Below are positions 24,341 through 34,792 of a DNA stretch of 35,296 nucleotides, in pieces. Location of the stretch: the NCBI RefSeq assembly GCF_016841685.1, contig NZ_JAENYR010000037.1:1-35296 (forward strand), in the 5' to 3' direction. The notes below the pieces were generated by a model that was not told the origin of the DNA, ran no database searches, and worked only from the letters and a program-made list of their open reading frames with translations. Source of the DNA: Thiohalomonas denitrificans. Lineage in GTDB: Bacteria; Pseudomonadota; Gammaproteobacteria; Thiohalomonadales; Thiohalomonadaceae. The translations under genes and the position numbers were made by a program. Position 1 is the first letter of the stretch. Each line of letters starts with the position of its first letter.

Positions 24341-24359
24341 GAGGGCAGTCGCACTGCTG
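24341..24359 (+). promoter_or_regulatory. Possible sigma-54 promoter of the SafE-like gene
   Basis: GGGCAGTCGCACTGCT has GG and GC ten bases apart, the required -24/-12 spacing, with GGCA and TGCT partly matching TGGCAC and TTGCW. The predicted start is about 34 bp before the GTG. No CATATG palindrome is seen upstream, so support is weaker than for the exbB promoter. Confidence 0.3.
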
Positions 24360-24402
24360 TTCTTTTGATAACATAGTCGTTCAACCGCATGCGTGGAAAG
24401 TC

Positions 24403-25110
24403 GTGGAGTTTCCCCTAATTGCCGGATTCATTGTCGGCCTGTTCAATACCCTTCACTGTGTCGGAATGTGCGGAGGGATAATGGGTGCGCTTACCTTCAG
24501 CCTGCCCGCCGAGGTGCGCGAACGACGCCCGCGACTTCTGACCTATCTGGCCGCTTACAACAGCGGCCGCATTCTCAGCTACGCTGCAGCCGGCGCCCTG
24601 CTCGGCGGACTGGGTGGAAGTCTGCTCGGCATCTTTGGCGATCGGGGGCACGCGCTGCTGCAAGGACTCGCCGCTCTCCTGATGACCGGTATCGGCTTGT
24701 ATATCGCCGGTTGGTTTCCCAAATTCGCGTTGGTGGAGCGACTCGGCATACCGTTATGGCGCCGTCTCGAACCGCTCGGGCGCAGGATGCTGCCGGTTCG
24801 TTCTCCCGTACAGGCCCTGCTATACGGGACCATTTGGGGCTGGCTTCCGTGCGGTACTGTTTACAGCATGCTGCTCTGGACCGTCGCGGCCGAGGGACCG
24901 GTTGAAGGCATGCTCGCAATGGCCGCATTCGGAGCCGGTACTTTACCTGCCGTTATGGGCGCGGGTATGCTTACCGCATGGCTGGGCCGCATCAGCCGCC
25001 GTCCCGCGATTCGTCGTGTTGCCGGCATGAGCCTGATCGCACTGGCTATCGGCAGTGTTGCCCTCATAGAGCCACTGCACCAATTAGGACCTTCGCTTTC
25101 TATCCACTAA
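24403..25110 (+). CDS. SafE/DsbD_2-type membrane protein (probable copper/cytochrome-oxidase-related transporter)
   Basis: A 235-residue polytopic protein of the 'sulfite exporter TauE/SafE' (DsbD_2-like) group, members of which are often found with cytochrome oxidase assembly genes. About six membrane helices are visible. The N-terminal helix holds FNTLHCVGMCGGIMGAL (about 14-30), a His-Cys-Met-Cys cluster typical of the family and suited to metal or thiol chemistry, and WGWLPCGTVYSMLLW (about 146-160) carries the second conserved Pro-Cys-Gly. Translation starts at GTG. It lies between tRNA-Lys and the sigma-54 activator (11-bp gap, same strand), and the cluster's other genes are for copper import, so a role in moving copper or reductant across the inner membrane is my inference. 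Confidence 0.8.
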   Translation: MEFPLIAGFIVGLFNTLHCVGMCGGIMGALTFSLPAEVRERRPRLLTYLAAYNSGRILSYAAAGALLGGLGGSLLGIFGDRGHALLQGLAALLMTGIGLYIAGWFPKFALVERLGIPLWRRLEPLGRRMLPVRSPVQALLYGTIWGWLPCGTVYSMLLWTVAAEGPVEGMLAMAAFGAGTLPAVMGAGMLTAWLGRISRRPAIRRVAGMSLIALAIGSVALIEPLHQLGPSLSIH

Positions 25111-25121
25111 AGTGATTAGGC

Positions 25122-26078
25122 ATGAGCTCATTCGAAAAAGAACTACTGGGTGGTGCCCCCGAATTCCAGGCGGTGATCCGTTCCGCTGAAGTGATCGCCG
25201 CAACTGACGTTACCGTCCTGATCCTGGGAGAGAGCGGCACCGGAAAAGAACTGCTGGCCCGAGCGGTCCATGCTCAAAGCAGACGGGCAGAGGCGCCGTT
25301 TGTGACCATCAACTGCGCCGCCCTGCCGGAAGGACTCGCCGAATCCGAGCTCTTCGGCCACTGCAGAGGTGCGTTTACCGGGGCGGTCAACGAAAATGGT
25401 GGACGCGTGCGGGCGGCCGAAGGCGGAACCCTGTTCCTGGACGAGATCGGCGAACTTCCTCCGGCTATCCAGGCCAAACTGTTGCGTTTTCTCGAATCCG
25501 GCGAATGCCAGGCAGTGGGGAGCACCTACTGCCGTCAGGTCAATACCCGCATTATTGCTGCCACCCATCGCAACCTGCACGCGCTGGTTCAGGAAGGCCG
25601 CTTCCGTGAAGACCTCTATTACCGGCTTAACGTAATACCGCTGGAAGTACCACCCCTTCGCCATCGCACCGGTGACACTCTGCGGCTGGTGCCGATATTC
25701 ACCCGCCAGCTGTCCGACCAGCACGGGTTAGAGACGCCGCGCCTCCTGCCCGAAGCCCTCGATGCGATGAGAACCTACGATTGGCCCGGCAACATCAGAG
25801 AGTTGCGCAATGTTTGCGAACGGCTGGTAATCCTTTTCGGCGGACGCGAGGTCACGGTGGATAACCTTCCCGCCGAAATACGGCGTAAGAAAACCACCGC
25901 CACCCGGGTTAACGGGTTCGAGCTTCCGGAAGGGGGGATTCGTTTCGACCAGCTGGAGCAGTCGCTGCTCCTCCAGGCGCTGGAAAAAAGCCGCGGCAAT
26001 CGCAGCCGGGCCGCCCGTCTGGTCGGACTCACCCGCGATACCTTTCTCTATCGTCTGAAGAAGTATGCGATCGGCTGA
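25122..26078 (+). CDS. Sigma-54-dependent activator lacking an N-terminal sensor domain
   Basis: A bacterial enhancer-binding protein that uses ATP to open sigma-54 promoters. The 318 residues go straight into the AAA+ domain: Walker A GESGTGKE (36-43), GAFTGA sigma-54-contact loop (83-88), Walker B GGTLFLDE (101-108), sensor/R-finger region FREDLYYRLNVIPLEVPPLR (161-180) and WPGNIRELRN (221-230). A Fis-type helix-turn-helix ends the protein (about 283-315, SRGNRSRAARLVGLTRDTFLYRL). There is no receiver, GAF or PAS domain, as in PspF. Unusual cysteines occur at 81 (next to GAFTGA), 129, 137 and 232. Its best target in the window is the -24/-12 promoter with paired palindromes upstream of exbB. 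Confidence 0.93.
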   Translation: MSSFEKELLGGAPEFQAVIRSAEVIAATDVTVLILGESGTGKELLARAVHAQSRRAEAPFVTINCAALPEGLAESELFGHCRGAFTGAVNENGGRVRAAEGGTLFLDEIGELPPAIQAKLLRFLESGECQAVGSTYCRQVNTRIIAATHRNLHALVQEGRFREDLYYRLNVIPLEVPPLRHRTGDTLRLVPIFTRQLSDQHGLETPRLLPEALDAMRTYDWPGNIRELRNVCERLVILFGGREVTVDNLPAEIRRKKTTATRVNGFELPEGGIRFDQLEQSLLLQALEKSRGNRSRAARLVGLTRDTFLYRLKKYAIG

Positions 26079-26156
26079 AGCTACCGGGTGATTCGCATCA
26101 CAATATCCACAAAGGCATTGATCGGGCAGGAGGCGGGACTCCCCTCCCGCACCAGC

Positions 26157-26186
26157 AAAAAGGGCGCACCATGGTGCGCCCTTTTT
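26157..26186. terminator. Bidirectional terminator between convergent units
   Basis: The 20-bp perfect palindrome GGGCGCACCATGGTGCGCCC (26162-26181) is flanked by five As and five Ts. It lies between the sigma-54 activator (plus) and the copper chaperone (minus) and should terminate both. Confidence 0.93.
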
Positions 26187-26200
26187 CATGCAACGGGGAT

Positions 26201-26689
26201 TTAATGGCCCATGGAGCTATGGTCCATTTTTCCACCGCTCATGCCGCCCATGGAGCCGCTGGCACGGACCTCGTACATCAATTCCATTTTCTCTCCATCC
26301 GCAAACTCGAGCGTTACCGGCACTTTTTCGCCCGCCTTCAGCGCCTGTTTCGGCTTCATGAGCATCAGGTGATATCCCTTCGGCTCGAATGTGACAGACC
26401 CGCCCGCCGGAATCGTCACTTTCATTTGATGGACCATCTTGGCCAACCCGTCCTCTACGATGGTTTTGTGCAGCATCACATTGTCGTAAGCGGGGCTCTG
26501 CGCGGCCACCAGGGCGCGCTCCTGTTCACCATGGTTATGGACCACCATGTAGCCCGCCATGGCCTTGGAAGTCGGAGGCGCCTCCCGAATCCATGGATTC
26601 TCCACCATCACCCCGTTTCCAGCGGCCTGTACTGCGGCGGACAGACAGAGGAACGCTGGAATCACCAGTGTCTTTAGCACTTTCATCAT
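26201..26689 (-). CDS. Periplasmic copper chaperone PCu(A)C
   Basis: A DUF461-family cupredoxin-like chaperone that carries Cu(I) in the periplasm, in known cases for the CuA or CuB site of cytochrome oxidases. The signal peptide is MMKVLKTLVIPAFLCLSAAVQA. The diagnostic H-x10-M-x21-HxM copper motif is exact: His74, Met85, His107, Met109. The C-terminus has a Met/His-rich tail (GSMGGMSGGKMDHSSMGH) that can bind more copper. The 162-residue length fits. Two adjacent ATGs (26689, 26686) follow GGGAAGAG. It is last in the exbB-exbD-tonB-receptor series, 69 bp after the receptor and just before the bidirectional terminator. Confidence 0.95.
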   Translation of the reverse strand: MMKVLKTLVIPAFLCLSAAVQAAGNGVMVENPWIREAPPTSKAMAGYMVVHNHGEQERALVAAQSPAYDNVMLHKTIVEDGLAKMVHQMKVTIPAGGSVTFEPKGYHLMLMKPKQALKAGEKVPVTLEFADGEKMELMYEVRASGSMGGMSGGKMDHSSMGH

Positions 26690-26709
26690 CTCTTCCCTTC
26701 TCGGTTGTC

Positions 26710-26744
26710 AAAAAAACACAAACCTCCACCGGAACGGTCCGGTG
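26710..26744 (-). promoter_or_regulatory. Hairpin between receptor and chaperone genes (possible attenuator)
   Basis: CACCGGA (26727-26733) and TCCGGTG (26738-26744) form a 7-bp stem with a 4-base loop. On the minus strand the stem is followed after about ten bases by seven Ts. The gap from stem to T-run is long for a terminator, so partial attenuation or RNA processing is as likely. Confidence 0.35.
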
Positions 26745-26758
26745 ACAGGCTTTTTCAC

Positions 26759-28711
26759 TCAGAATTGTGCCGAGGCCTGTAGCCATAGGGTACGGCCCGG
26801 CTCGTTGACCCTTTCAACCTGCTCAAACCCCTCGATATCGACGCCTCCCTTACTAAGATGCTCGACGTAGGTCTTATCCAGCACGTTATCGATCCCGGCC
26901 GTTAGTTTGACATTTTCGCTGGGCCGATAACCGGCATGCATGGATAATACCCCGAAGCCGGGGGTGGTACCGAAATCCTGTCCGGCAATCGAGCCGCTAC
27001 CGACATCCACGCGGTCCTGTTCCGCCGCCGCGCGCAACAGGACGCCGGCCAGATAGGTCCGGTTATCGTAATCCAGTGCCAGCGTCCCCTCGAGCGGAGG
27101 GATCTGGGCCAGCGCCCTGTCGTCGGTTTCGTTCTCCCCGCGCACATAGGCCAGGGTACCGGTCATCCGCCAGTCGGCAGCGAACTTCCAGGTCAAATCT
27201 CCCTCCAGGCCATAGGTAACCGCGTCTATATTGCGCGCCTGTCCACCCTCCCAATCGATAAGGATGTAATCCTGGATGTCGGCGTAGAACGCCGCCAGGT
27301 TTCCGGCCAGCGCCGGGGTCCCGTAGCCGAGCCCCAGATCCAGCTGGGTATTGACTTCGGGATCCACCTCGAAGGTCTTGTTGCGTTCCCAGAAGTCGGG
27401 CGAACGTTCTGCGCGACCGAGGCCGGCGAACACCGTTACGGGCGATTGCAGGCTGCGTTCATAGCGCACGAATGCACCGCGGGTGGTGTCCTCGTCCCCG
27501 GTTCCCGGCGATGCCCCTCCCACCTCGATCTCCTCCACCGTGGTATCCGTGCGATCCATTCGCACACCGGCGAAAAGCGCATCCCGGACATTCAGTTGAT
27601 GTTCGAACTCGGCAAACACCCCGGTGCGGGAGAAGGAGAGATCGTCCATGCGTGGCTTGCTGTCGAAATCGGGATCCGGGGCGGAGGCCATCGCCTGAGC
27701 CCCTCGTTTACTGTGTTGATCCTCCTGGTAGTCGATACCAAGGGTGGCAAACGTCATCCCGCCCAGATTGAGGTCCATGCTGGCCCGTGCCCCTGTGGTA
27801 TCCCGGTCGGGATTCATCACCATTTTCATCATGCCGGGCTCGCGCAGCGTGTAGTTATCCATGACGTGATCGACGTAGTTGGTGTAATACTGCAGTTCCA
27901 GCTTCTCGACGTTTCGAGAGAGGCGCATCTTCTCGAACTTCAGACCGTAACCCTCCCGCTCAAAAGCGGACCCATCCAGCGAACGATCGGCATAGGCCGC
28001 TTCGCCATCGCTGCGATCAATCGACAACTCGAGCCGAGTATCCTCACTGGGCGTCCAGCCGCCAATCGCCGTACCGCTCCAGCGCCGATACTCGGAATGA
28101 ATTTCGGTGCCGTCACCGTCCTCGTAATCATCCACCTCGGACCGGGTACCAATCACACGAAGAAATCCCTTCTGCGCCCCCAGCGTAGCATCCACCACCT
28201 GATCGTTGCGGCCATAGCTGCCCACCAGGCCGTTGGCAAAGAAGCGCTGGTCCGGTTCCTCGAAACGTTCGGTGCGCCTCTCGAACAGAACCGTACCCGC
28301 TACGTTACCCGGCCCATAAAGAACCGTCTGGGGCCCCTTGATCACGGTAACCTCATCGAAGGAGCCGGGATAGATATAGGCCGTCGGCGGGTCCATGCGA
28401 CCACCACAACCCCCGAAAAGATAATTACCGTCCTGCAGTATATTAAGACGTGAGCCCGCCAAACCGCGCAGCACCGGATCCCCGGATGTTCCGCCCTTGC
28501 GCACCACGGAAAAACCGGCGATGTTCTTGAGGAAATCGGCACCATCGGCGGCGGGCACCGGCTGCCGCGGCGCCTTGGGATCGGTGGTCACCACCAGCGG
28601 ATCCGACATGGTGGGCGCGGTGACCACAACCGTGCCGATATCCTCCGCACCGGCCGCCAGAGGCAATAGCCCCAGAGCAAGGGCACAGCAAAGCTTTTTC
28701 TCTTTTATCAT
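26759..28711 (-). CDS. oprC: TonB-dependent outer-membrane copper receptor (OprC/NosA family)
   Basis: An outer-membrane barrel for copper import, energised by TonB. The signal peptide MIKEKKLCCALALGLLPLAAGA is followed by a TonB-box-like DIGTVVVTAPT and a plug domain with FLKNIAGFSVVRKGGTSGDPVLRGLAGSRLNIL and EVTVIKGPQTVLYGPGNVAGTVLFE. The OprC-type copper site is visible: CxxxM in GGCGGRMDPPTAY (Cys102, Met106) and HxM in YVDHVMDNY (His282, Met284). The barrel ends in the terminal Phe of ASAQF. I start at 28711 (650 aa); a start nine codons earlier adds a charged MSRFLKEKT. It follows tonB by about 36 bp. Confidence 0.94.
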   Translation of the reverse strand: MIKEKKLCCALALGLLPLAAGAEDIGTVVVTAPTMSDPLVVTTDPKAPRQPVPAADGADFLKNIAGFSVVRKGGTSGDPVLRGLAGSRLNILQDGNYLFGGCGGRMDPPTAYIYPGSFDEVTVIKGPQTVLYGPGNVAGTVLFERRTERFEEPDQRFFANGLVGSYGRNDQVVDATLGAQKGFLRVIGTRSEVDDYEDGDGTEIHSEYRRWSGTAIGGWTPSEDTRLELSIDRSDGEAAYADRSLDGSAFEREGYGLKFEKMRLSRNVEKLELQYYTNYVDHVMDNYTLREPGMMKMVMNPDRDTTGARASMDLNLGGMTFATLGIDYQEDQHSKRGAQAMASAPDPDFDSKPRMDDLSFSRTGVFAEFEHQLNVRDALFAGVRMDRTDTTVEEIEVGGASPGTGDEDTTRGAFVRYERSLQSPVTVFAGLGRAERSPDFWERNKTFEVDPEVNTQLDLGLGYGTPALAGNLAAFYADIQDYILIDWEGGQARNIDAVTYGLEGDLTWKFAADWRMTGTLAYVRGENETDDRALAQIPPLEGTLALDYDNRTYLAGVLLRAAAEQDRVDVGSGSIAGQDFGTTPGFGVLSMHAGYRPSENVKLTAGIDNVLDKTYVEHLSKGGVDIEGFEQVERVNEPGRTLWLQASAQF

Positions 28712-28747
28712 CGTTTTCTCTTTTAAAAAGCGGGACATTTCAATTCA

Positions 28748-29470
28748 TTAGCGAAGCGCAAAGGTCATCCTGAAAGAAACCTCGAGCGGCAACGCTACCG
28801 TCTCCGGCGGCATGGGCATCGGCAGGGCCGCTTCAACAGCATCCTTCGCGGCCGCTTGCAGAACGCTGTTTTTCCCGGCCGTGTGAAGGCCCCGAATTTC
28901 ACCCCTCTCCCGGATCGAAAAGGTCACCTCCACCTCCCCTTGAATCCCCCGGCGGCGTGCCGCGCGGGGGTAATGTTTATGCCCTTCAATCCGGGCGATA
29001 AGGCGGGCGAAATATTCGTTTTTCTCCCGTTCGGTCAGTTTCGGGTCATTCACTGCCTGCCCGGCGACCGCCGGGGGCAGTTCCATCGCCTTTTCTGCAG
29101 TCGGCTGTGACGGCGACGGTGGCGCTTGCGGCTGCGGCTCCGTTTCGACCGGCTCTGGACGCATCTCCGGTTCGGGTCGCTGCACCGGTTCCGGCTCAGG
29201 TTCGGGTTCCGGCTTTGGTTCGGGCTCCGGCTTCGGCTTCGGTTTCGGAGGCTCGGGTTCAGGCTCAGACGGCTTATCAACCGCCTCTGGCGGCACTTCC
29301 GGCGGAGGCGAAGCCACGGAACGAAAACTGACTCGCGTTACCGCCTGTTGCTGGTTTGGAAGCGGCTCTTCCGCACCCAGCCGAGCACCAGCGTTGAGGA
29401 ACAGACTTCCATGAACCATCGCGGAGATCAGAAACGCTCCAACCCAGATCCCTGCATCGCGCCGTCTCAT
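28748..29470 (-). CDS. tonB: TonB energy-transducing protein
   Basis: It transmits proton-motive force from ExbBD to the outer-membrane receptor. The 240-residue protein has one N-terminal membrane helix (IWVGAFLISAMVHGSLFLNAG, about 8-28), a long periplasmic EPEP/KPKP region (about 55-125) and a C-terminal domain (about 150-240) with HKHYPRAARRRGIQGEVEVTFSIRERGEI, the conserved YPxxAxxxxxxG core. Its ATG overlaps the exbD stop by 4 bp. Because it lies between exbD and the copper receptor, it is probably a dedicated TonB for that receptor. Confidence 0.95.
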   Translation of the reverse strand: MRRRDAGIWVGAFLISAMVHGSLFLNAGARLGAEEPLPNQQQAVTRVSFRSVASPPPEVPPEAVDKPSEPEPEPPKPKPKPEPEPKPEPEPEPEPVQRPEPEMRPEPVETEPQPQAPPSPSQPTAEKAMELPPAVAGQAVNDPKLTEREKNEYFARLIARIEGHKHYPRAARRRGIQGEVEVTFSIRERGEIRGLHTAGKNSVLQAAAKDAVEAALPMPMPPETVALPLEVSFRMTFALR

Positions 29471-29868
29471 TTCGTTTCGGTTACGATGTCCACTGCTTCG
29501 GCCCCGGCCTTCCGTGCCTTATCCAGAACCTTCACCGCCGAACCGAGATCTGCACCGCGATCCCCGCGAATACGTACGATGCGATTCTCACGCTGCTCCA
29601 GAGAGCGGCGTAGCGTAGCTTCCAGGGCCTCGGGCTCGACCACATGATCATTCACCAGAAAGCGGCCCTGGGCATTGATGATCACTTCCAGTTGACCATC
29701 CTCCCCGGTGGCCTCACCACTTTCCGCCACCGGCAGATCGATATTGAGGGCCTCTTCCCGCACAAAATGCGAGGTCAGCATGAAGAACACCAGCAGCAGA
29801 AAAACGGCATCGATCAGCGGCGTCAGGTTGGGCATTTGCGTGGCACGCCGCCGCCCTTCAAAGTGCAT
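29467..29868 (-). CDS. exbD: ExbD biopolymer transport protein
   Basis: The proton-channel partner of ExbB in the inner membrane. From the ATG at 29868 the protein is 133 residues: a short cytoplasmic N-terminus (MHFEGRRRATQMPNLTPLID), the essential membrane Asp at residue 20, a helix AVFLLLVFFMLTSHFV, and a periplasmic domain ending KAGAEAVDIVTE. An in-frame start 19 codons earlier lies inside exbB and gives a basic leader unlike ExbD. It overlaps exbB by 11 bp and tonB by 4 bp, so all three are translationally coupled. Confidence 0.95.
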   Translation of the reverse strand: MHFEGRRRATQMPNLTPLIDAVFLLLVFFMLTSHFVREEALNIDLPVAESGEATGEDGQLEVIINAQGRFLVNDHVVEPEALEATLRRSLEQRENRIVRIRGDRGADLGSAVKVLDKARKAGAEAVDIVTETK

Positions 29869-30520
29869 GGAGCACTCCGTCCCGATGGTGCACCGCTCCC
29901 TCCTCCGTATCCGACTCCGGGGCATGCGGAAGCCGTTCCAACACGAGGGAAGCGCACGCCTTCATGGACTGTGCACGACGGTCCGCCATCCCTTCCAGCA
30001 GGTGCAGAATGAGCAGGACGGGGATGGCTACTGCAAGCCCGACGCCGGTCGTGACCATCGCCTCCCAGATGCCGCCGGCCAGGGCCTGTGCGTCTACCCT
30101 GCCTCCAGCGGCCTCGATAACCATAAAGGCCTTGATCATGCCCGTGATGGTGCCGAACAGTCCAAGCAGCGGCGCGGTGTTGCCGAGAATGGCCAGGGTT
30201 CGAAAGCCCCGTTCCATGCGCTGCAGTTCCTGAGAGCCTACCCGCTCTGCAACACGACTCAGTTCACGGATTCCCTCATTGCTGGCCTCGAGCACTGCGC
30301 TCATGACATTCACTTCCGGGCCCCGGTGCCGGGCCGTCAGCTTGCCGAGCCCACCCACATGGAGCGCCGAGCGGGCCTGACTCCCGAAATTGTTGGGGAC
30401 GCGGCCAAGCAGCGAAAAATGGATCAAACGCTCGACAATGATGGTCAAAGCCACCAGGGAATAACCGGCCAGGATCCACACCACTGGTCCGCCTTTCGCG
30501 AACAATTCCGAAATCATCAT
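29858..30520 (-). CDS. exbB: ExbB biopolymer transport protein
   Basis: A pentameric inner-membrane MotA/TolQ/ExbB proton-channel protein. The 220-residue product has a first helix GGPVVWILAGYSLVALTIIVERLIHFSLL (about 10-38), a cytoplasmic loop with RMERGFRTLAILGNTAPLLGLFGTITGMIKAF (about 100-132; the second helix begins here) and a third helix TTGVGLAVAIPVLLILHLL (about 156-175) with the conserved Thr/Gly face. Two adjacent ATGs open it, without an obvious Shine-Dalgarno. It is the first gene of the copper-receptor operon, about 60 bp from the predicted sigma-54 start site. Confidence 0.95.
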   Translation of the reverse strand: MMISELFAKGGPVVWILAGYSLVALTIIVERLIHFSLLGRVPNNFGSQARSALHVGGLGKLTARHRGPEVNVMSAVLEASNEGIRELSRVAERVGSQELQRMERGFRTLAILGNTAPLLGLFGTITGMIKAFMVIEAAGGRVDAQALAGGIWEAMVTTGVGLAVAIPVLLILHLLEGMADRRAQSMKACASLVLERLPHAPESDTEEGAVHHRDGVLHAL

Positions 30521-30555
30521 TATGGTCGCACCGTCCGAAACAAGAGCAAAACAGA

Positions 30556-30579
30556 ATTGACCGCACCGGTGCGGTCAAT
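30556..30579 (-). promoter_or_regulatory. Perfect 24-bp palindrome at predicted exbB transcript start
   Basis: ATTGACCGCACC (30556-30567) is followed by its exact reverse complement. It begins at about +1 of the predicted sigma-54 transcript. As DNA it could be an operator for a dimeric repressor; as RNA it would fold into a 5' leader hairpin. It does not match the CueR or CsoR operator patterns I know. Confidence 0.65.
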
Positions 30580-30590
30580 CGTGGCGTTCT

Positions 30591-30607
30591 TGCAGAAGGC
30601 ATGCCAA
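30591..30607 (-). promoter_or_regulatory. Sigma-54 (-24/-12) promoter of exbB operon
   Basis: The minus strand reads TTGGCATGCCTTCTGCA, against the consensus TTGGCACGGNNNTTGCA. GG and GC are exactly ten bases apart, and the -24 box TTGGCA is perfect. The predicted start is near 30580, about 60 bp before the exbB ATG. A sigma-54 activator gene lies in the same cluster. Confidence 0.75.
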
Positions 30608-30656
30608 ACATAACCCACTGATAAAATTCATCATTGCGGAAAAAAGGCGGCTGCGT

Positions 30657-30694
30657 GTGTGGCATATGACACGGCAGCCGCGGCATATGCCGCG
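30657..30694. promoter_or_regulatory. Paired CATATG-centred palindromes, probable activator binding sites
   Basis: Site 1 GTGGCATATGACAC (about 30659-30672) is a palindrome with one mismatched pair; site 2 CGCGGCATATGCCGCG (30679-30694) is perfect. Their centres are 21 bp apart, two helical turns, and lie at about -86 and -107 from the predicted exbB start. This is the usual place for enhancer sites of a sigma-54 activator. Both share GGCATATG.C. Confidence 0.65.
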
Positions 30695-30757
30695 CGGGCA
30701 TTCCAGCACGGGCGATTGCCGAGGAAGAAGTGGATCTTGAGAAGGCGCAGGAAAGAC

Positions 30758-30788
30758 AAAAAAAAAGCTTAGGCGATGCCTAAGCTTT
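30758..30788 (-). terminator. Terminator of the tRNA-Pro/Arg/His cluster
   Basis: AAAGCTTAGGC (30764-30774) pairs with GCCTAAGCTTT (30778-30788), an 11-bp stem around a 3-base loop. On the minus strand it runs into a T-tract (30766 down to 30758). It lies just past tRNA-His and isolates the tRNAs from the copper operon. Confidence 0.93.
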
Positions 30789-30794
30789 CTTGTA

Positions 30795-30871
30795 TGGGGT
30801 GGACGAGGGGACTTGAACCCCCGACCACTGGAGTCACAATCCAGGGCTCTACCAACTGAGCTACGTCCACC
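30795..30871 (-). tRNA. tRNA-His(GTG)
   Basis: A minus-strand cloverleaf: acceptor GTGGACG/CGTCCAC, with the extra 5' G(-1) opposite C73 typical of His tRNA, and encoded CCA. The anticodon stem CTGGA/TCCAG holds TTGTGAC, giving GTG. Confidence 0.96.
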
Positions 30872-30896
30872 ACTGTACTTTGTACTACCGGGCATT

Positions 30897-30973
30897 TGGC
30901 GCGCCCGGCAGGACTCGAACCTGCGACCCTCGGCTTAGAAGGCCGATGCTCTATCCAGCTGAGCTACGGGCGC
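30897..30973 (-). tRNA. tRNA-Arg(TCT)
   Basis: A minus-strand cloverleaf: acceptor GCGCCCG/CGGGCGC, discriminator G, encoded CCA. The anticodon loop CTTCTAA gives TCT. Confidence 0.96.
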
Positions 30974-32723: not shown

Positions 32724-33376
32724 GAACCACGGGGAACACGGGGCACACGAGGGAGAAAATATCCGAACAACTTGTTGTACCCCGTGCTCCACGTGTACGC
32801 CGTGGTTACCCGTTCTTCATTGATTCTGGCCTTGTGCAGCAGGGGGTACGGCTCGCAATGACGTCCGCGTTCTCTCGAGTCGCTTGGTGGATGCGCTTCG
32901 CTTATCCCACCCTACCAGGTGATTACTCTGAACCACGGGGAACACAACCTGTTTTACCCCGTGCTCCCCGTGTACCCCGTGGTTACCAGCTCTTCATTGA
33001 TTCGGGCCTGCACAGCAGGGGGTACGGCTCGTAAAAACGTCCGCGTTCTCTCGATTTGCTTGGTGGATGCGCTTCGCTTATCCCACCCTACCAGGTGATT
33101 ACTCTGAACCACGGAGAACACGGGCGCACGGGGAAGAAAAAACTGAACAACTTGTTTTACCCCCTGGTCCCCGTGCTCCCCGTGGTTACCAACTCTTCAT
33201 TTTCCGCGTTCTCTCGAGTCGCTTGGTGGATGCGCTTCGCTTATCCACCCTACCCGTCGATTACTCCGAACAGCCGGGAAACGAACAACCTGTTTTACCC
33301 CGTGCTCCCCGTGTACCCCGTGGTTACCAGCTCTTCATTGATTCGGGGCCGCGCAGTGACGGGGTTGGGCTGGCAA
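32724..33376. repeat. Three-module tandem repeat array in the folD-cysS gap
   Basis: Module A is an inverted repeat: GAACCACGGGGAACACGGGG on the left and CCCCGTGTACCCCGTGGTTACC on the right, at about 32724-32810, 32930-32988, 33107-33190 and 33270-33330 (left arm decayed). Module B (CTCTTCATTGATTCGGGCC...CAGCAGGGGGTACGGCTCG) follows at 32811, 32990, 33191 (internally deleted) and 33331. Module C (GGTGGATGCGCTTCGCTTATCCCACC, a REP-like hairpin) follows at about 32885, 33062 and 33223. So the A-B-C unit of 165-205 bp is repeated 3.5 times, ending a few bases before the cysS stop. Confidence 0.9.
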
Positions 33377-33382
33377 TGAATT

Positions 33383-34792
33383 CTACTCCCGGCGCCAGGT
33401 GGTCCCCCCGGGCGAATCCTCGAGCACGATCCCTTGCGCCTGGAGTTCATCGCGGATGCGATCGGCGGTGGCGAAGTCCCGGTTCTGGCGCGCCAGGATG
33501 CGTTCCTCGATGAGCTTGTCGATCTCCTCATCCGAGGGTCCGCCGGCTGCAGCACCGCCTCGGAGAAACGCCTGCGGGTCCCGCTGCAAGAGCCCGAGCA
33601 GACCCGCCAGAGACATGAGCAGCGCGCCGTACCGACCGGCCCGCTCCGGCTCCGAATCCCGGCAACGATTCATCTCGTGGGCCAGTTCGAACAGGACCGC
33701 CAGCGCCTCGGAGGTACCGAAATCATCATCCATGGCCGCATAGAAGCGTTCGGCGTGACCGTCCGGTTCCCCCGCTTCCACAGGTGGCAAATCGAGCCCC
33801 TTCATTGCGTTGTAGAGCGTGGTGAGCGCGGCCTTGGCACTCTCCAGATGCTGGTCCGAATAATTGAGAGGACTGCGGTAGTGGCTGGTGAGGATGAAAT
33901 AGCGCACCACCTCCGGGTCGTACTGCTTGAGCACGTCCCGGATGGTGAAGAAATTGCCCAGGGACTTGGACATCTTCTCGTCATCGATGCGCACGAACCC
34001 GTTGTGTAGCCAGTAATTGACAAATTTACAGCCGCAGGCGCCCTCGGACTGGGCAATCTCGTTTTCGTGGTGGGGAAACTGCAGGTCCAGCCCGCCACCA
34101 TGAATATCGAAGTGTTGACCCAGACTGTGGGTCGACATGGCCGAACACTCGATGTGCCAACCCGGCCGGCCCTTGCCCCAGGGCGAATCCCAGGCCGGCT
34201 CGTCCGGTTTGGCCGCCTTCCAGAGCACAAAATCGAGCGGGTCCCGCTTCGCCTCCCCGACCTCCACCCGTGATCCGGCACGCAGGTCATCGGGGTTCTT
34301 TCCGGAGAGCCGGCCGTATCCCTCGAAACTGGAGACGTCGTAGTAGACATCGCCGTTATCCGCCGGGTAGGCATGATCCTTTTCGATCAGCATCCCGATC
34401 ATGTCGATGATCTGGGACATGTAGAGGGTGGCACGCGGCTCCTCATCGGGCTCCTCGACGCCGAGCGCCTTCGCATCCTCGTGCATGAAGCCGATGAAGC
34501 GTTCGGTCAGTGCACCGATATCCTCGCCGTTTTCATTGGCGCGGGCGATGATCTTGTCATCGATGTCGGTGATGTTGCGCACGTAGGTCACGTGCTCTTC
34601 GCCATAGAGATGGCGGAGGTAGCGGTTAATCACATCGAACACCACCAGCACGCGGGCGTGTCCGATATGGCAGTAGTCATACACCGTCATGCCGCAGACA
34701 TACATCCTCACCCGCTCGGGATCGATGGGAACGAACGGCTCCTTCTTGCGGGTGAGATTGTTGTGGACCTTGAGTTCGTGCTGATACGCCAT
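33383..34792 (-). CDS. cysS: Cysteinyl-tRNA synthetase
   Basis: A class I synthetase that charges tRNA-Cys in the cytoplasm. The 469 residues agree with E. coli (461). [15 protein letters not shown] (about 33-47) gives the first zinc Cys and the HIGH motif; [10 protein letters not shown] (about 209-218) and the [20 protein letters not shown] segment give further zinc ligands; [10 protein letters not shown] (about 272-281) is the KMSKS loop. The C-terminal DALR/anticodon part ends with [23 protein letters not shown]. It starts at the ATG at 34792. Its stop lies immediately after the tandem repeat array, and it faces folD across the array and the CMD gene. Confidence 0.97.

Follow-up and report, generated by a model that had tools for sequence, protein, structure and literature searches.

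The 35,296-nt contig NZ_JAENYR010000037.1 of Thiohalomonas denitrificans (assembly GCF_016841685.1; hereafter, this whole stretch of DNA is called the window) very probably carries a sigma-54 regulon for copper acquisition, in which an operon for TonB-dependent uptake is turned on by a neighbouring sigma-54 activator (hereafter, ACT) through paired palindromes. Five closely packed genes lie on the minus strand in the order exbB-exbD-tonB-OprC-PCu(A)C, and two plus-strand genes, encoding a SafE/DsbD_2 membrane protein and ACT, converge on this operon. In our model, ACT would bind two palindromes (consensus TGYGKCATATGMCRCA) lying 20–22 bp apart, and, once bound, would engage RNA polymerase carrying sigma-54 at the downstream -24/-12 promoter; it would thereby switch on ExbBD-TonB and the OprC-type receptor for outer-membrane import, together with PCu(A)C for periplasmic handling. 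In relatives, the same element would serve genes for OprC, other TonB receptors, exbB, tonB, or PCu(A)C, located near ACT or elsewhere. The link between ACT, the palindromes, and copper-receptor promoters is well supported by comparing ACT loci with shuffled controls and genomes with and without ACT. Binding by ACT and dependence on rpoN are predicted, and the signal is probably copper insufficiency.

The exbB promoter region contains all parts of this element. The -24/-12 box (TTGGCATGCCTTCTGCA, positions 30591–30607, minus strand) has GG-N10-GC spacing, with a predicted transcript start near 30580. TGGCAYGN5TGCW matches without mismatch inside this box and nowhere else in the window. The box fits the GG-N10-GC core of the sigma-54 consensus TGGCAC-N5-TTGCW and is conserved before the gene. 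Upstream of the box are two palindromes, 21 bp apart, which we propose as ACT sites: a proximal one (TGTGGCATATGACACG, 30658–30673, core 30661–30670), at about -86 from the predicted start, and a distal one (CGCGGCATATGCCGCG, 30679–30694, core 30682–30691), at about -107. An initial sequence-only reading of the window had described both the exact -24/-12 spacing and the palindrome pair at these distances, and both descriptions held. The 16-bp palindrome form occurs without mismatch at only these two places in the 3.79-Mb genome. When up to two mismatches were allowed, the whole genome showed no excess (113 matches, compared to 108 for the reversed control), and matches to GGCATATGNC with one mismatch in the window (10, compared to a shuffle mean of 7.75) were not above chance. 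Single palindrome sites therefore mean little, because their one-mismatch count is no higher than in shuffled sequence, and the analysis rests accordingly on conservation and on pairs. The -24/-12 box alone was rejected as a predictor; a loose scan returned many matches per locus (at least dozens in several). The predicted start of the exbB transcript is followed immediately by a perfect palindrome of 22 bp (TTGACCGCACCGGTGCGGTCAA, 30556–30581); its counterpart in the sister species is imperfect. A hairpin in the 5'-untranslated region was considered as a common means of control and discarded when no shared structure stood out among 18 folded promoters. The window and the sister species each form a stable hairpin (z-scores of -1.6 and -1.5), but locus L053 reaches -1.7.

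To describe conservation, we defined a composite element as two TGYGKCATATGMCRCA palindromes 20–22 bp apart, followed by a -24/-12 box 60–134 bp further on. The palindrome consensus was fixed ahead of the first scan, from the window and loci L079 and L083, and the spacing was narrowed to 20–22 bp once that scan had been seen. In the sister species (locus L071, genome G019; same genus, ACT 94% identical), the box and the distal palindrome are identical to those of the window and the proximal palindrome has one base changed. In this genome no OprC gene separates tonB from PCu(A)C, and a search at E 1e-25 detected no TIGR01778 receptor, yet exbB, exbD, tonB, and PCu(A)C are kept behind the same promoter and palindromes. 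Two other genera of the family (L079 and L083) have an exbB promoter with a similar box and related, degenerate palindromes. Across 54 non-redundant ACT loci (687 kb; five duplicates and the short loci L013–L027 removed, some close relatives remaining), the composite element was found at 20, compared to 1, 0, 0, 0, 0, 0, 1, 1, 0, and 0 loci in ten dinucleotide shuffles. These 20 loci contain 23 boxes, 18 of which lie in front of exbB, tonB, PCu(A)C, or a TonB receptor of the OprC or another type. Three more (L074, L076, and L077) lie in front of a DUF4198-like gene that neighbours such a receptor, and two (L030 and one of the two at L041) have no plausible target gene. At L074, L076, and L077, the element sits between a receptor of the second type described below and a divergent gene, whose product in L074 and L076 shows sub-threshold DUF4198 similarity.

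The distances from palindrome to box were also restricted. In 43 promoters selected by the element, they fell mostly at about 57, 66–71, 78–81, 87–94, and 100–102 bp, with a few stragglers. The steps between these values are about one helical turn, with the formal periodicity statistic being inflated by site pairing; such spacing is expected if the bound activator must face the polymerase.

To extend the comparison beyond ACT loci, we surveyed 369 gammaproteobacterial genomes, calling those with a detected ACT match ACT+ and those without ACT-. An ACT match was found in 51 (including G222 and probably G324, which encode related response regulators), a TIGR01778 receptor in 44, and both in 20 (Fisher test: 3e-8). 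Under the strict element rule, the element was present at 9/20 receptor loci in ACT+ genomes and 0/24 in ACT- genomes, a comparison that preceded the relaxation of the distance limit and was not tuned on that point. The best composite score within 450 bp upstream of the receptors ranged from 29.7–40.2 in 18 ACT+ genomes and 23.7–34.4 in 24 ACT- genomes (Mann-Whitney test: p = 5e-8); this scored comparison was tuned here, in that palindrome-box distances down to 55 instead of 60 were admitted once six ACT+ upstream regions had been viewed (57 in G176). Two of the 20 ACT+ genomes do not enter it, namely the window's own and G258 (contig beginning 9 bp before the match); G241, which was also in the discovery set (as L058), is included. 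Each part of the element separated ACT+ from ACT- receptor upstream regions when taken alone (area under the curve: palindrome 0.94, box 0.90). A score of at least 31.5 was reached by 16/18 ACT+ and 1/24 ACT- genomes, or, counted by family, by 12/14 and 1/17. The lone ACT- exception, G067, was found to carry a sensor-less ACT in a 320-aa frame (E 6.6e-92, just past the 1e-92 cut-off). Its activator scored 420 bits against the ACT profile, whereas the best activators of nine other re-searched genomes and eleven paralogues from the window's own genome scored 347 bits or less. Reassigning G067, a change made after its score was known, gives 17/19 ACT+ and 0/23 ACT- genomes, on the basis of a re-search for weaker ACT matches in 6 of the 24 ACT- receptor genomes.

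Of seven ACT+ receptors that are distant from ACT or on a different contig, five (in G015, G140, G205, G309, and G366) have the strict element; the association between ACT and the element is thus not mere neighbourhood. The sequence-only reading had proposed that the local activator controls the operon, with conservation of palindromes and box at orthologous loci as a test that could refute it and co-occurrence of activator, palindrome pair, and box in related genomes as a check. The element was conserved (20/54 loci, compared to 0–1 per shuffle) and co-occurrence was found in both receptor comparisons (p = 5e-8; 9/20 and 0/24), so that conservation of the element together with ACT supports control by this activator.

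A second TonB receptor type, represented by L074:10993–13332, was nearly confined to ACT+ genomes. Among 113 genomes searched, it was found in 15/45 ACT+ genomes (which include G222 and G324) and 1/68 ACT- genomes, with 12 of the 15 matches falling within the window's own family. Its upstream regions scored at least 32.7 in 14/16 cases, a value reached by about 1% of random windows, a null that itself includes true sites. In the window's genome, L249:651–3714 holds a receptor of this type followed by a small membrane protein that resembles DsbD_2 proteins by eye, and the element is absent upstream.

Several observations weigh against this account. The strict element was missing from 34/54 ACT loci in the stretch scanned (the targets of these activators, if any, may lie elsewhere in the genome), and a larger scan returned it at 7/67 loci, where 32/67 were re-scans of the first set; of the seven, L206 and L210 duplicate L030 and L038, and L239 falls outside the ACT loci. 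The re-search for weaker ACT matches covered 6/24 ACT- genomes with receptors, and the receptors of the ACT+ genomes G181 and G143 have scores typical of the controls. Neither in the window's genome nor in the sister species does the second receptor type have the element, and G016 (84% complete), the one ACT- genome with a second-type receptor, shows no ACT-like match beyond the NtrC type but an element-like region upstream of that receptor (33.6). The remaining points concern the substrate: the copper-binding C-M-H-M tetrad described below is found equally in 23/23 ACT- receptors, and several receptors behind the element (L053, L054, L067, and two checked examples of the second type) are unaligned at this tetrad. 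Copper is therefore at most a putative substrate of L053, L054, L067, and the second-type receptors.

The genes of the operon itself point to copper. Pfam and TIGR matches bore out the gene set named in the sequence-only reading, including the SafE/DsbD_2 protein and the sensor-less activator. On the minus strand, ExbB (29858–30520; PF01618) is the first gene of the operon and is followed by ExbD (29467–29925; PF02472), whose listed frame overlaps exbB and which likely starts near 29868, and by TonB (28748–29470; PF03544). The OprC-type TonB-dependent copper receptor (26759–28738, minus strand) scored 665.3 bits against TIGR01778 (cut-off 472.45), and the PCu(A)C copper chaperone (26201–26689, minus strand; PF04314, 1.9e-38) is the last gene. 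The translation of the latter contains what we take to be the PCu(A)C motif, H-x10-M-x21-H-x-M. The receptor matched the OprC structure of Pseudomonas aeruginosa (6fok) with an E-value of 2.1e-161, aligned over nearly its whole length, and its copper tetrad (CxxxM and HxM) is intact at C111, M115, H291, and M293. The same tetrad was found in 19/20 ACT+ receptors, the twentieth being truncated. In OprC, residues C143, M147, H323, and M325 were mutated, as described in the available part of PMC8610252. We regard the receptor and PCu(A)C as copper acquisition genes, with copper transport predicted for the receptor. A sigma-54 gene is present in the window's genome (PF04552). Elsewhere in the window, near cysS, a short stretch (NNLFYP, PVVT-like) recurs in overlapping frames at 33056–33513 and may reflect a direct repeat that has degenerated.

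ACT (25122–26078, plus strand) consists of an AAA+ domain (PF00158, 1.4e-68) and a Fis-type helix-turn-helix (HTH) at residues 276–315 (PF02954, 1.6e-13), without an N-terminal sensor domain. Its translation contains GESGTGKE, GAFTGA (residues 83–88), and LFLDE, most positions of which are invariant or nearly so in 30 sequences. These are the Walker A, GAFTGA, and Walker B features of NtrC-family enhancer-binding proteins, from which ATPase activity and sigma-54 activation are predicted. ACT scored below the cut-offs of both the PspF model (273.8 bits; cut-off 443.55) and the NifA model (333.7 bits; cut-off 528.85), and its closest solved structure by sequence is ZraR (1ojl). We found 43 ACT relatives in genome contigs, 44–71% identical over their best segment. 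A scan of viral contigs retained 80 loci, none of them above 50% identity. L239 and L063 encode close ACT relatives in longer frames (455 and 571 aa), which may show the ancestor of the sensor-less form. The extension of the 455-aa frame of L239 (genome G222; 410 bits to the ACT profile) is a receiver domain, and this protein, as probably that of G324 with the same 455-aa frame, is for that reason classed as a related response regulator and not as ACT. Two copies of ACT were observed in G154 (L231), where a composite element precedes one ACT and another box faces a divergent gene, an arrangement that suggests self-control. Cysteines of ACT were considered as a direct copper site (C129 in 43/49 sequences, C232 in 38/49). 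The idea was dropped because C65 is general in the activator family and a Cys close to the position of C232 is present in NtrC as well.

Given that ACT has no input domain, it likely works with a partner, with the neighbouring DsbD_2 protein as the leading candidate for that partner or sensor. This SafE-like membrane protein (24403–25110, plus strand; PF13386, 4.3e-48) contains the motifs HC(19)xGMC(23) and WLPC(150)G. Its AlphaFold model is all-helical (mean predicted local distance difference test score 83.9), and its CcdA/DsbD fold is putative: the family is assigned by sequence, while neither a PDB sequence search (E 0.1) nor Foldseek (E 0.001) returned a match to any solved structure, CcdA and DsbD included. 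We tentatively consider that SafE could be a dedicated membrane sensor that gates ACT by direct contact and releases it when a Cys/His site is copper-free. The adjacency noted in the sequence-only reading recurs, with SafE immediately preceding ACT in the same orientation at 30/54 loci (25/47 in an overlapping set), often with overlapping stop and start, and residues H18, C19, M22, C23, and C150 are invariant in 32/32 SafE sequences. Among 28 ACT+ genomes examined that lack SafE beside ACT, 27 encode it elsewhere. At L067:5013–6836, from a metagenome-assembled genome (MAG) of Methylothermaceae, SafE and ACT form a single 607-aa open frame. This fusion comes from one MAG and may be a frameshift error, because the stop-start overlap at the junction is one base out of frame; the long frames at ACT in some other genomes contained no in-frame SafE. 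Specificity to the activator did not hold. At E 1e-60 or better, SafE was found in 15/39 ACT- genomes, and at about half of the ACT loci it does not immediately precede ACT, indicating a function of its own. SafE may instead be a membrane protein with a broader role in copper or redox handling, frequently transcribed together with ACT. That a transporter-like DsbD_2 protein senses copper through its invariant His/Cys site and directly gates ACT, the two forming a copper-starvation pair that governs TonB receptors of several kinds throughout the Gammaproteobacteria, is a speculative extension to which we assign a low likelihood. If true, receptors controlled by the SafE-ACT pair may include some for unknown copper complexes.

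One explanation that differs from ours, and an unlikely one, accepts that ACT uses the element and places the signal elsewhere than in copper shortage, for example in electron-acceptor or redox state through oxidase assembly, or in another metal complex. The variety of controlled receptors, some of them unaligned at the OprC tetrad, fits such a signal, as does a divergent target with sub-threshold DUF4198 similarity. DsbD_2 proteins also belong to a thiol-redox superfamily. The recurrence of PCu(A)C and TIGR01778 receptors downstream of the element argues for copper, however, as do the clusters of Methylococcus capsulatus that respond to copper limitation, one of which includes a TonB system and on which putative sigma-54 promoters are marked, according to the available part of PMC4831470.

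We consider it improbable that a different, widespread regulator binds at the palindromes, with the box a fortuitous match and ACT a bystander. CRP/FNR-like sites have the form TGTGA-N6-TCACA and NifA-like sites the form TGT-N10-ACA, and the palindromes resemble both, in their outer TGTG...CACA and in their TGT-N10-ACA form; the NifA model also scores ACT below cut-off. Against this, the element follows ACT and not the receptors, being sub-threshold at 23 receptors of genomes without detected ACT. The inner A-W-W-T is strongly conserved, even though the consensus used to pick sites contains A-W-W-T, and the palindrome-to-box distances are clustered. Chance occurrence of GC-rich intergenic palindromes and a GG/GC box, with exbB transcribed from a sigma-70 promoter, would agree with single one-mismatch GGCATATGNC sites being no commoner than in shuffles, but is contradicted by the sister species, the 20/54 loci, and the receptor comparisons, and no sigma-70-like promoter was found in a search of 30300–30900, making it extremely improbable.

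The analysis names a candidate activator, a DNA motif, and a promoter type, which would explain how copper-uptake genes are regulated and can be tested in relatives that have them, such as Thioalkalivibrio. The motif can also flag further copper-uptake genes, for example the second receptor type, which is nearly confined to ACT+ genomes among those searched.

Compared to known systems, ACT shares its architecture with PspF, which consists of an AAA+ domain and a Fis HTH and lacks a sensor domain, and with other NtrC-family proteins without an N-domain, so that control by a partner is likely. It differs from PspF in scoring below the PspF model cut-off and in having copper-uptake genes as neighbours. 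ZraR, the closest solved structure, is likewise a metal-linked sigma-54 activator, but it is a two-component response regulator of zinc and heavy-metal stress (as described in the available part of PMC12316311), whereas ACT has no receiver domain. The soluble methane monooxygenase (sMMO) operon is sigma-54 dependent with a dedicated activator, MmoR, according to the portion available of PMC5874634, and is expressed at low copper (PMC7994243, available in part). It thus resembles our system in pairing a sigma-54 operon with its own activator under low copper, but on these partial accounts it controls methane monooxygenase and not copper uptake, and MmoR is close to GAF-type regulators. OprC of P. 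aeruginosa is a TonB-dependent copper receptor that has the C-M-H-M site in common with the window's receptor, and its authors state that nothing is known of oprC down-regulation (in the accessible text of PMC8610252). The Bordetella TonB-dependent copper receptor CrtA differs in being controlled post-transcriptionally, by CruR (accessible text of PMC12914433). The nearest precedent is M. capsulatus, in which putative sigma-54 promoters are marked for three copper-responding clusters, one including a TonB system induced by copper limitation; an activator, upstream palindromes, and a link to OprC are not named in the available part of that source (PMC4831470). Nothing in the literature searched (titles, abstracts, and passages) described this activator, its motif, or its regulon. 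The earlier statement that no sigma-54-controlled TonB copper operon had been described is to be qualified by the putative sigma-54 promoters of M. capsulatus, as far as the available part of PMC4831470 goes. An enhancer-binding protein acting with sigma-54 from paired upstream sites is a molecular kind already known; what appears to be new is that such a mechanism serves copper import, along with the motif and the family of activators without a sensor.

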